Below, piece by piece: positions 361-35,369 of a stretch of DNA of 64,000 bases. Made by a program: the position numbers and the translations under genes. The DNA comes from Amycolatopsis camponoti (lineage in GTDB: Bacteria > Actinomycetota > Actinomycetes > Mycobacteriales > Pseudonocardiaceae). The DNA lies in the NCBI RefSeq assembly GCF_902497555.1, contig NZ_CABVGP010000001.1, positions 4,320,501 to 4,384,500 on the forward strand. The letters are read 5' to 3'. How positions within the stretch are numbered: the stretch's first letter is position 1; each line of letters opens with the position of its first letter. The notes beneath the pieces are model-generated. The model was given only the letters and a program-made list of their open reading frames with translations, had not been told where the DNA came from and made no database searches.

Positions 361-1613
361 CAGGACTCCTTGTTGTTGACGGTTTCGACATCGGACACGG
401 AAGGGAAGCCGCGCAGGGTGCGGCTGAACGTCGTCAGCACCGTGACCGCCGCGATCGCCCCCGCGCAGGTGAGCACGGCGGCCGAATCGGGGAGGAGGTC
501 GACGAGCCAGCCGCCGAGCGCCGGGCCGAGCGCTGCGGCCAGCCCGCCCGTCACACCCATCACGCCGCCGAGGCGGCCGCGCAGCTCGTCGGGTGTGAAG
601 AGCAGCTGGTAGGTGTTGATGGTCGTGTTCGCCGCCGGGGCCAGGAACGCCATCGCCGCGAACAGCAGACCCATCAGGTAGCCGTTGTGGACGAACACCG
701 CCAGCGGTGTCAGCAGCGCCAACCCCCAGAACACGCCGATGATCAGCGCGTACGGGCTGAGCTTGCGGTGCAGGTACGGCGCGGCCAGCGCCCCGGCGAT
801 GCCACCGCCGCCGAGCATCGCGGCCATCACGCCGATCTCGCCGGGCGGCACGCCGCGTTCGTTCGCCAGCACGATGATCACCAGGTAGTACGCCGCGAAG
901 AACAGGTTCAGGACGATCGCGCACACCGCCGTGACGCGCACGCGCGGCTGGTGCCACACCCAGCGCAGCCCTTCGGCGATCTCCCGGCCCAAGTGCGCGG
1001 GCGGCCGTTCCGCCGCCGGCTCCGGACGCGCGGGCAGGCGGACGAACACCAGCGACACGAACGCGACCACGTGCGCGACGACGTCGAAGACGAACGGCGC
1101 GAGCCGGCCCAACGCGAACAGGAAGCCGCCGAGCGCCGTGCCCGACAGCTGGCCGGCGCTGGTGCGCGCCGCGTTCAGCGCCACCGCCGACGGGACCTGC
1201 TCGGTGCTCACCAGGTGCGGCAGGCTGGCTTCCTCGGCCGGTTCGAACAACGCCCGGCACAGCCCCATCACGACGGCGACGACGACGAGCTGCGCCACCC
1301 CGGCCACGCCCCACCACAGGGCGAGCACCAGGCTGGCCGCCCCGAGCGCCTGCACCGCCTCGCAGCCGAGCATGATCCGCTTGCGCGACCAGCGGTCGAC
1401 GAGGGCGCCGGCCGGCAGCCCGGCGACCAGCTGCGCGATCGCGATCGCGCCGAGCACCAGCCCGGACTGCGCGGCCGAGCCCGTGATCGCCAGCACCAGC
1501 AGGGGGAACGCGATCGTCGTGGTGCTGAACCCGGCCTCGGACACGACCTGGCCGGTCCACAGCAGCCGGTAGTCCCGGTTGCGGGACAGCTTCACCTCGC
1601 TCGGCGCGCTCAC
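360..1613 (-). CDS. MFS exporter, EntS-like
   Basis: A 417-residue membrane protein with about 12 hydrophobic segments. The basic loop DRWSRKR after the second or third segment is the MFS motif A. The overall sequence resembles the EntS branch (enterobactin exporter-type) of the major facilitator superfamily, frequently found beside NRPS genes as product exporters. The start is GTG at 1613, overlapping the NRPS stop codon by four bases (GTGA), and the stop overlaps the MbtH start by one base, so it is translated with the operon. The inferred role is export of the nonribosomal peptide and self-protection; the sequence does not identify the substrate. Confidence 0.9.
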
Positions 1614-34094: not shown

Positions 34095-35369
34095 TCAGCG
34101 GCGTCCGGCGAGGCGGCCGCCGATTTCGACCGCGGCCGAGGCGCCGGGCTCGCCGCGGAACCGGCCGCAGGGGGTGACCCGGCCGGTCGCCGGATCGCGG
34201 ACGGTGAACGTCCGGTCGTCGTGGAGCACCAGCTCGGGGAACACTTCGCCGTCGACGACGAGGCGGTCGGCCGTGATCACGTACTCGATGGATCCGTTGC
34301 GGTAGGCGCCGAAGTCGCCGGGTGGCACGGGAACCTCGCGCGTCGCTTCCGGTGCCTGGGCCGCGCGGGACGGGACGTCGATGCCGAGGTCGGCGAGCTC
34401 GGCGGCCAGCGCGTGCCACAGGTCCGCGCCGGTGGTGCCGTTGGTGGTCAGGGCGACCACGCAGGCGCCGGCCTGGTCGATCCGCAGGTGGCAGGAGGTG
34501 CCGTCGGCGGTGCCGTCGTGCCCGAGCCAGCCGTTGTCCGGGTCGCCGAAGTGGGCGATGCCGAGGCCCCACCCGTCGGCCAGGCCGAACGGCTCGGCGG
34601 CCGGGACGCGCCGGTGCATGTCGGCCGCGGTGACGACGTCGAGCAGGCCCGGCTTCCCGAGGTGGACCCGGCCGAGCGAGACGAGGTCGGCGGCGCTCAT
34701 CGCGAGCGCGCCCGCGGGGTCGAGCATCGGTGGCAGGATCTGCTCGACCGGACGGTCGCCGGCGTGCCCGGACACGACACCCGGGTCGTCGACGAAGACA
34801 GGCTCGATGTTCAGCGGGCGCAGGACGATCGCGTCGGCCGCCTCGCGCCAGCTCATCCCGGTGACCTCTTCGATCACCGCACCGACCAGCGCGTAGCCGA
34901 GGTTGGAGTACGAGAAGGCCGTCCCGGGGGGACAGACGGGCGCGGCGCCACGCACTTCTCTCAGCACCGAGCCGGCGAGGTCGGCCGGGTCGGACGGCAG
35001 CCCGCCGGTGTGGCTCAGCAGCCGCCGGGTGGTCAGCTCGGCGGGCAGTCCGGAGACGCCCAGGACGTCGCCGACGGGTTCGTCCAGGTCGAGGTCGTCG
35101 TCGGCGACGAGCACCATCGCGAGGGTCGCGGTGACCAGCTTGGTGATCGAGCCGACCGGGACCGCGGAGGTGGGGAGCATCGCCCCGGGCCGGTCGTGGT
35201 GCCGGACCCCGGCCTGCACCACGGTGGCTTCGTCACCCTGCCACACCGCGAGCTGCGCCCCCGGCACCCGGTACTGGCGGGCGAGCCCCGCGAGGAGCGC
35301 GTCCAGCCGGGCCGCGGGCACCGGGCGGGTGCCCGCCCGCCGGTCGAGGACATCGTTTTCGGACCGCAT
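34095..35369 (-). CDS. Stand-alone PBP/beta-lactamase-fold hydrolase, probable trans-acting peptide cyclase (SurE type)
   Basis: A 424-residue serine hydrolase of the class C beta-lactamase/penicillin-binding-protein fold. The catalytic motifs are present: SITK (S74, K77), YSN (Y154, N156) and HDG (284-286) in place of KTG. There is no obvious signal peptide, unlike true beta-lactamases and PBPs, so it should act in the cytoplasm. In surugamide, desotamide and related pathways, such enzymes (PBP-type thioesterases) release and head-to-tail cyclise peptides whose last residue is D, from NRPSs lacking a thioesterase. The downstream NRPS ends in an epimerase without a thioesterase, which fits exactly. 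The start is ATG at 35369, with GAAAGG nine bases upstream; earlier in-frame starts give a non-family-like extension. Alternatives are an esterase or a resistance D-peptidase. Confidence 0.88.
   Translation of the reverse strand: MRSENDVLDRRAGTRPVPAARLDALLAGLARQYRVPGAQLAVWQGDEATVVQAGVRHHDRPGAMLPTSAVPVGSITKLVTATLAMVLVADDDLDLDEPVGDVLGVSGLPAELTTRRLLSHTGGLPSDPADLAGSVLREVRGAAPVCPPGTAFSYSNLGYALVGAVIEEVTGMSWREAADAIVLRPLNIEPVFVDDPGVVSGHAGDRPVEQILPPMLDPAGALAMSAADLVSLGRVHLGKPGLLDVVTAADMHRRVPAAEPFGLADGWGLGIAHFGDPDNGWLGHDGTADGTSCHLRIDQAGACVVALTTNGTTGADLWHALAAELADLGIDVPSRAAQAPEATREVPVPPGDFGAYRNGSIEYVITADRLVVDGEVFPELVLHDDRTFTVRDPATGRVTPCGRFRGEPGASAAVEIGGRLAGRR

Follow-up and report, generated by a model that had tools for sequence, protein, structure and literature searches.

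The locus analyzed here raises the question of how an NRPS assembly line that has no thioesterase and terminates in an epimerization (E) domain releases its peptide, and what that peptide is. The window, meaning the whole 64-kb stretch of Amycolatopsis camponoti DNA that was analyzed, carries at its left end a five-gene operon on the minus strand (163-35369), in the order PBP-type hydrolase, NRPS1, NRPS2, MFS transporter, and MbtH. We consider it very likely, with a probability of roughly 0.87, that the product of this operon is a cationic nonapeptide, cyclized head to tail by a stand-alone PBP-type thioesterase and then exported. The gene order, domain order, intact motifs, cyclase family, and conservation that carry this reading are evident from the sequences, beginning with the genes listed here.

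34095..35369, minus strand: stand-alone PBP-type thioesterase, a putative trans peptide cyclase of 424 aa (PF00144, 2.8e-48)
16437..34025, minus strand: NRPS1, 5862 aa, five modules A-T, C-A-T-E three times, C-A-T (Pfam, motif and profile parse)
1610..16426, minus strand: NRPS2, 4938 aa, four modules C-A-T, C-A-T-E, C-A-T, C-A-T-E (Pfam, motif and profile parse)
360..1613, minus strand: MFS transporter (PF07690, 2.1e-40; same position in all 19 relatives of the same 5+4 module architecture)
163..360, minus strand: MbtH-like protein, 65 aa (PF03621, 5.7e-22, a match within the longer frame 163-1962; translation; relatives)

All five genes are single uninterrupted frames at these coordinates, and the stop and start codons overlap at the NRPS2/MFS and MFS/MbtH junctions. 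The length of the hydrolase is counted from the ATG, and its open frame extends to 35489. A sequence-only reading of this DNA had placed the two NRPSs and the hydrolase at 1610..35369, where the frames are present as it described; the MFS and MbtH genes, absent from that reading, complete the operon at the left edge of the window. The MFS transporter is likely the exporter of the product, and the MbtH-like protein is likely a partner of the A domains. The dN/dS values against Amycolatopsis pretoriensis are 0.19 for the cyclase and 0.18 for both NRPS1 and NRPS2.

Only the Condensation, AMP-binding, AMP-binding_C, and PP-binding families of Pfam were detected in the NRPS proteins (NRPS1 was scanned in two halves), and the motif and profile parse gives nine A, nine T, eight condensation (C), and five E domains for the two proteins together, in the order proposed from the sequence. 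The profile match of E9 stops three residues short of the end of the NRPS2 protein and the parse shows nothing beyond it, which bears out the earlier claim that NRPS2 ends without a thioesterase, reductase, or terminal condensation domain. No conventional thioesterase was detected by Pfam in the five-gene operon. The core motifs are intact, with LGGDS in all nine T domains, HHxxxDG in all eight C domains, and both HHxxxDxVSW and EGHGRE in all five E domains. The E-domain motifs TVGWFT and FNYLGQ are also kept with small changes, namely FNYLGR in module 4, and TIGWFT and FNYHGR in module 7; the deviation of E7 from the remaining E domains at two motifs is counted against the preferred explanation. 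Each of the nine A domains retains its A10 lysine; in module 6 the motif reads HGKLD instead of NGKxD, a departure that is likewise counted against this explanation. As NRPS1 begins with an A domain, a free N-terminus is expected for the peptide.

By its sequence, phylogeny, predicted fold, and catalytic motifs, the hydrolase encoded by the first gene is a PBP-type thioesterase. Beta-lactamase (PF00144) is its only Pfam family, the SxxK, YxN, and HxG motifs ascribed to it are found as SITK, YSN, and HDG, and inspection of the sequence and alignment by eye reveals no hydrophobic leader at its N-terminus. Across an alignment of the window protein with 20 of the 120 homologs listed, Ser74, Lys77, Tyr154, and His284 do not vary, and Asn156 is replaced by Ser in three of the 20. 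A sequence search of solved structures ranked SurE (6KSU, E 5.1e-67, 230 bits) first and Ulm16 (8FEK, E 1.2e-55, 193 bits) second, and the next match is the esterase IS11 (7SPN, E 3.1e-22, 83 bits). SurE is also the top match of the predicted fold (E 3.8e-35, TM 0.79/0.76, 450 alignment columns; AlphaFold model with pLDDT 80.7 and pTM 0.83), followed by Ulm16 as the second distinct protein matched. The R61 D,D-peptidase, compared by score only, is placed lower in both the sequence and the fold lists. The predicted model includes a C-terminal lipocalin-like beta domain with nine strands at 354-423.

In a tree of 70 rows, which left out DsaJ, WolJ, PenA, MppK, and FlkO, a branch with support of 94/94 parts the window protein, SurE, and Ulm16 from 12 outgroup rows, consisting of 10 other family members (from Amycolatopsis and its order-mates), the esterase IS11, and the beta-lactamase 6NJK. 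A grouping of the hydrolase with secreted esterases or D,D-peptidases, which the sequence-only reading had named as an outcome that would overturn it, was not observed. The 47 rows of the clade that holds the window protein (95/95) include no characterized enzyme; its sister is a clade of 11 rows (91/83) with SurE and Ulm16. SurE, Ulm16, IS11, and 6NJK lie on long branches, and the placement of SurE and Ulm16 in the sister clade, rather than next to the window protein, weighs against the preferred explanation. A Gly of the window protein aligns with SurE Gly235 when the numbering offset is derived from Ser63 of SurE. Gly235 is described as a pocket residue for the C-terminal D-residue in PMC11735501. 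According to the same source, the two ends coupled by PBP-type thioesterases are an L residue at the N-terminus and a D residue at the C-terminus, in agreement with the rule invoked earlier for SurE-type enzymes, by which a D C-terminal residue is joined to an L N-terminal residue.

The nine-letter codes of the A domains were read off an alignment that used the Thr domain as its anchor, rather than assigned by a trained predictor, and are as follows.

NRPS1, modules 1-5: DAYWWGGTF (Val), DAYWWGGTF (Val), DAYFWGVTF (Val/Ile), DAYFWGVTF (Val/Ile), DAYWWGGTF (Val)
NRPS2, modules 6-9: DTEDMGYVD (basic), DFWNIGMVH (Thr), DTEDLGYVD (basic), DLTKVGEVG (Asn)

DFWNIGMVH and DLTKVGEVG are the usual codes for Thr and Asn, and DAYFWGVTFK also resembles Ile codes. 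In PMC9113097, DAYWWGGTFK and DAYFWGVTFK are both assigned to Val; because the latter is printed there as Val, the Ile reading at positions 3 and 4 is left as Val or Ile. From these codes, Val at positions 1, 2, and 5, together with Thr and Asn, is firmly predicted, and positions 3 and 4 would be Val or Ile. Besides the constant first Asp, the DTEDxGYVD pair has acidic residues at three pocket positions, which fits a cationic side chain at positions 6 and 8; Arg, Orn, or Lys could each be the residue. A printed match for the DTEDxGYV code, variants included, was not found in the literature searched.

The stereochemistry can be predicted from the domain anatomy, as the line begins with an L residue (module 1, A-T without E) and finishes with a D residue (module 9, with E), and further E domains are located in modules 2, 3, 4, and 7. 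The resulting pattern, L-D-D-D-L-L-D-L-D, gains support from the agreement of the C-domain active-site types with the E positions. In the window and 33 relatives, C domains after E carry HHxxLDG (97/105) or HHVLFDG (8/105), C domains after T carry HHIxTDG in 81 of 82 cases with one motif-less, and the 32 protein-initial C domains carry HHIATDG (18), HHIVTDG (7), HHVVTDG (5), HHIVADG (1), or no motif (1), counts that are not independent because the domains are homologous and come from related loci. Epimerization of Ile and Thr by E domains would give the D-allo forms. The predicted product is cyclo(Val, D-Val, D-Val/allo-Ile twice, Val, basic, D-allo-Thr, basic, D-Asn), very probably a cationic ring built of nine residues. 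For the ring with two Ile, the calculated [M+H]+ is 967.630 with two Orn, 995.661 with two Lys, or 1051.674 with two Arg; every replacement of Ile by Val takes off 14.016, and the linear acid would be heavier by 18.011. A two-Lys ring carrying Val at positions 3 and 4 would be equal in mass to a two-Orn ring carrying Ile there. The product claimed in the sequence-only reading stands in its Val, Thr, Asn, and two basic positions and its D/L pattern, and is refined by the D-allo forms of Ile and Thr and by the admission of Arg at the basic positions.

In the proposed mechanism, NRPS1 would start from a free aminoacyl-T (L-Val), build five residues, and pass the chain to NRPS2, which would add four residues, the D configuration being set by the E domains in modules 2, 3, 4, 7, and 9. 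The chain would be held on T9 as a thioester with its D-Asn end and then be accepted by the PBP-type thioesterase on the active serine (SITK), after which attack by the L-Val amine would close the ring by joining an L residue to a D residue. The MbtH-like protein may aid the A domains, and the MFS protein may export the ring.

Operons of this family are widely distributed in the genus. A search of 80 Amycolatopsis genomes for the hydrolase found matches of 1e-60 or better in 42; in 25 of the 80, the match reached 1e-107 or better and an identity of at least 54%. The domain architecture was parsed in 33 related loci, 19 of which have the exact 5+4 architecture and all belong to those 25 genomes; among the other six genomes, G037 is cut by a contig end and five lie outside the parsed set. 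In these 19 relatives, the stand-alone cyclase gene is kept beside NRPSs without a cis release domain, and the MFS and then the MbtH gene follow NRPS2 in every case. NRPS1 is A-first and NRPS2 is E-last in 20 loci including the window. A second arrangement, the cyclase followed by CATE CAT CATE CAT CATE, is present in nine of the 33 parsed loci, in two of which one A domain appears as two hits. In G026 and G031, the two of the nine loci read fully, an upstream NRPS adds five modules to give a ten-module line, with the first NRPS of G026 spread over two frames. In this line, MbtH and the cyclase stand between two five-module NRPSs (L134 with L059-L060 in G031; L135 with L061-L062 in G026). The nine sister clusters share with the present operon a related cyclase (50-55% identity), MbtH, MFS, and a five-module first NRPS (G026 and G031), but differ in that the cyclase and MbtH precede the second NRPS and in most of their codes. 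Other parsed loci are cut by a contig end (G068) or contain other NRPSs (G055 and G012), and no NRPS occurs within 19.9 kb in G042.

The surroundings of the operon can be followed further in A. pretoriensis DSM 44654 (G001), which carries a 93%-identical operon (protein) on contig C27. This copy finishes at MFS-MbtH, and genes unrelated to peptide assembly come next. The five upstream flanking proteins are a P450, a TetR, a PaaX-like, an MFS, and an isochorismatase protein, the five downstream are one family-less protein, DUF4230, and glycosyl hydrolases of families 10, 12, and 9, and no thioesterase is among these 10 proteins scanned. A thioesterase beyond the left edge, which the sequence-only reading had named as the case that would overturn it, is thus not seen in the flanks of the equivalent operon. 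A six-frame scan of C27 116000-214624 detected only two lone AMP-binding ORFs beyond the two NRPSs, and no T, C, or E domain outside them. Elsewhere in the 64-kb window, a six-frame scan found no further A, T, C, or E domain, and no thioesterase family was found among the proteins scanned (main ORFs); the window does encode an epoxide hydrolase (38615-39742) and, further along, a GDSL lipase (57954-59033), both away from the operon.

These results bear on three other explanations. It is highly improbable that the hydrolase is an unrelated esterase or a D-stereospecific peptidase with a resistance or cell-wall role, standing first in the operon by chance, and that the chain is released by a different enzyme. 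The PF00144 family is broad, and IS11 and the R61 D,D-peptidase do appear lower in both lists; however, SurE and Ulm16 score 230 and 193 bits against 83 for IS11, the tree separates the groups, and the gene is kept beside these NRPSs in 19 of the 33 parsed relatives. Moreover, neither the operon nor the 10 flanking proteins scanned in A. pretoriensis include a second release enzyme, and the epoxide hydrolase and GDSL lipase of the window do not adjoin the operon. Somewhat less improbable, yet still quite unlikely, is a chain longer or shorter than nine residues, produced via a further NRPS gene, module skipping, or module reuse, for which the sister group offers a precedent: both of its fully read loci have ten modules, and the cyclase gene is placed between those of the NRPSs. 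Against this, the core motifs are found in all nine modules, the A-first NRPS1 and E-last NRPS2 recur in the 20 loci including the window, and no extra T, C, or E domain was detected by six-frame scan in the window or in A. pretoriensis C27 116000-214624.

The explanation with the most weight among the three, although also unlikely, is that the hydrolase mainly releases a linear nonapeptide acid, in a hydrolase or proofreading role, so that the natural product is linear. Such a product is conceivable since surugamide F, though offloaded by SurE, accumulates in linear form in one study (PMC7459860). On the other side, the L N-terminus, the D C-terminus, and the A-T start without a capping C domain suit cyclization, the two closest solved relatives are cyclases, and a D C-terminus is the reported SurE requirement (PMC11735501). 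Head-to-tail cyclization by the stand-alone thioesterase is the reading we prefer.

It is established that stand-alone PBP-type cyclases serve thioesterase-less, E-ending NRPSs. Mannopeptimycin is a hexapeptide, and gramicidin S and tyrocidine are cationic amphipathic cyclic decapeptides of similar size whose rings are closed by a cis thioesterase; one synthetic-peptide paper has reportedly been built on cluster predictions of such kind. The predicted ring may also have membrane activity. The surugamide/SurE system of Streptomyces albidoflavus resembles the present operon in its terminal E domain, lack of a cis thioesterase, and stand-alone PBP-type cyclase (PMC7459860), but makes octa- and decapeptides with one SurE for two assembly lines, whereas one nine-module line is present here. 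The ulleungmycin cyclase Ulm16, the second distinct solved-structure match of the window protein, differs in acting on a hexapeptide (PMC11735501, PMC13285481). Mannopeptimycin (MppK, MppL) and biffamycin (BifB SurE domain, BifA) also combine a PBP-type cyclase with a cluster MFS exporter (PMC7459860, PMC13285481), and MFS exporters have been linked to the aglycons of both (PMC13285481). In contrast to the present operon, which has no tailoring gene, both involve glycosylation and tailoring, and biffamycin is a tetrapeptide whose cyclase is fused to the NRPS. The cis thioesterase of TycC joins a D N-terminus to an L C-terminus (PMC11735501). According to PMC7459860, a survey of 1421 actinobacterial genomes identified such systems, of 4-10 modules, in 166 organisms, and a PBP-type system is reported in about 15% of sequenced Streptomyces strains (PMC13285481, 2026).

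The pathway had been put forward as undescribed. This appears to hold for the product, as no described peptide matching the prediction was found in the literature searched, which left out most subscription papers, but not for the type of pathway: its mechanism is already known, and operons of this family occur commonly in Amycolatopsis. The pargamicins, valgamicins, amycolatomycins, and suertides are named in the available parts of PMC8037709, a review of Amycolatopsis metabolites, and PMC9359914, where none is given as a cationic nonapeptide, and the pachycephalamides and demiguisin have other scaffolds (PMC11446937). None of the Amycolatopsis gene cluster families in the available part of PMC5984834 was matched to the operon. 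The operon product is apparently undescribed.

Within the 5+4 group, the main variation is at module 9. An Asn-like code is found there in the window and in G001, G017, G023, and G033, and the other codes are DALLxGAVV in nine loci, DASxVxAVx in five, and DALFVGAVV in one (G022). Module 7 reads Thr, except in G022 and G033, where it reads Asn, and there are smaller code changes at modules 4, 5, and 8. These patterns suggest a broader proposal, to which we give even odds: Amycolatopsis would harbor, across the genus, an as yet undescribed family of dicationic cyclic nonapeptides and a sister family of decapeptides; the nonapeptides would come from one of the longer native lines of PBP-type thioesterases, in which evolution swapped mainly the C-terminal residue (Asn or another at module 9, with smaller changes at 4, 5, 7, and 8) and the architecture and cyclase remained constant. 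The operon would then represent a conserved, apparently orphan cationic cyclic peptide in a genus known for antibiotics, and its relatives would supply naturally occurring cyclases whose assembly lines vary chiefly at the very residue to be recognized. If the nonapeptide family reading is true, this set would be a natural experiment on how the C-terminal D-residue is read by the cyclase, and it could aid product discovery and the use of PBP-type cyclases as peptide-ring makers.

In the remainder of the window, the stretch 37829-56336 on the upstream side of the operon matches A. pretoriensis contig C21 from 1283527 at ~82-90%; as the 93%-identical operon is on C27, the operon occupies a different genomic place in the two close relatives. 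The epoxide hydrolase gene (EHN and Abhydrolase, 38539-39759) is missing from the otherwise matching C21 stretch. The region 43042-47710 encodes an IclR regulator, a family III CoA-transferase, an intradiol (catechol) dioxygenase, and a zinc alcohol dehydrogenase, and resembles a cluster for the breakdown of aromatic compounds that has nothing to do with the NRPS. A pair consisting of an FtsX-like permease and an ABC ATPase is encoded at 50257-53623. A TetR-family regulator (EthR_C) lies at 36231-36869 near the upstream end of the operon, and a TetR gene of a different subfamily lies upstream of the operon copy in A. pretoriensis.
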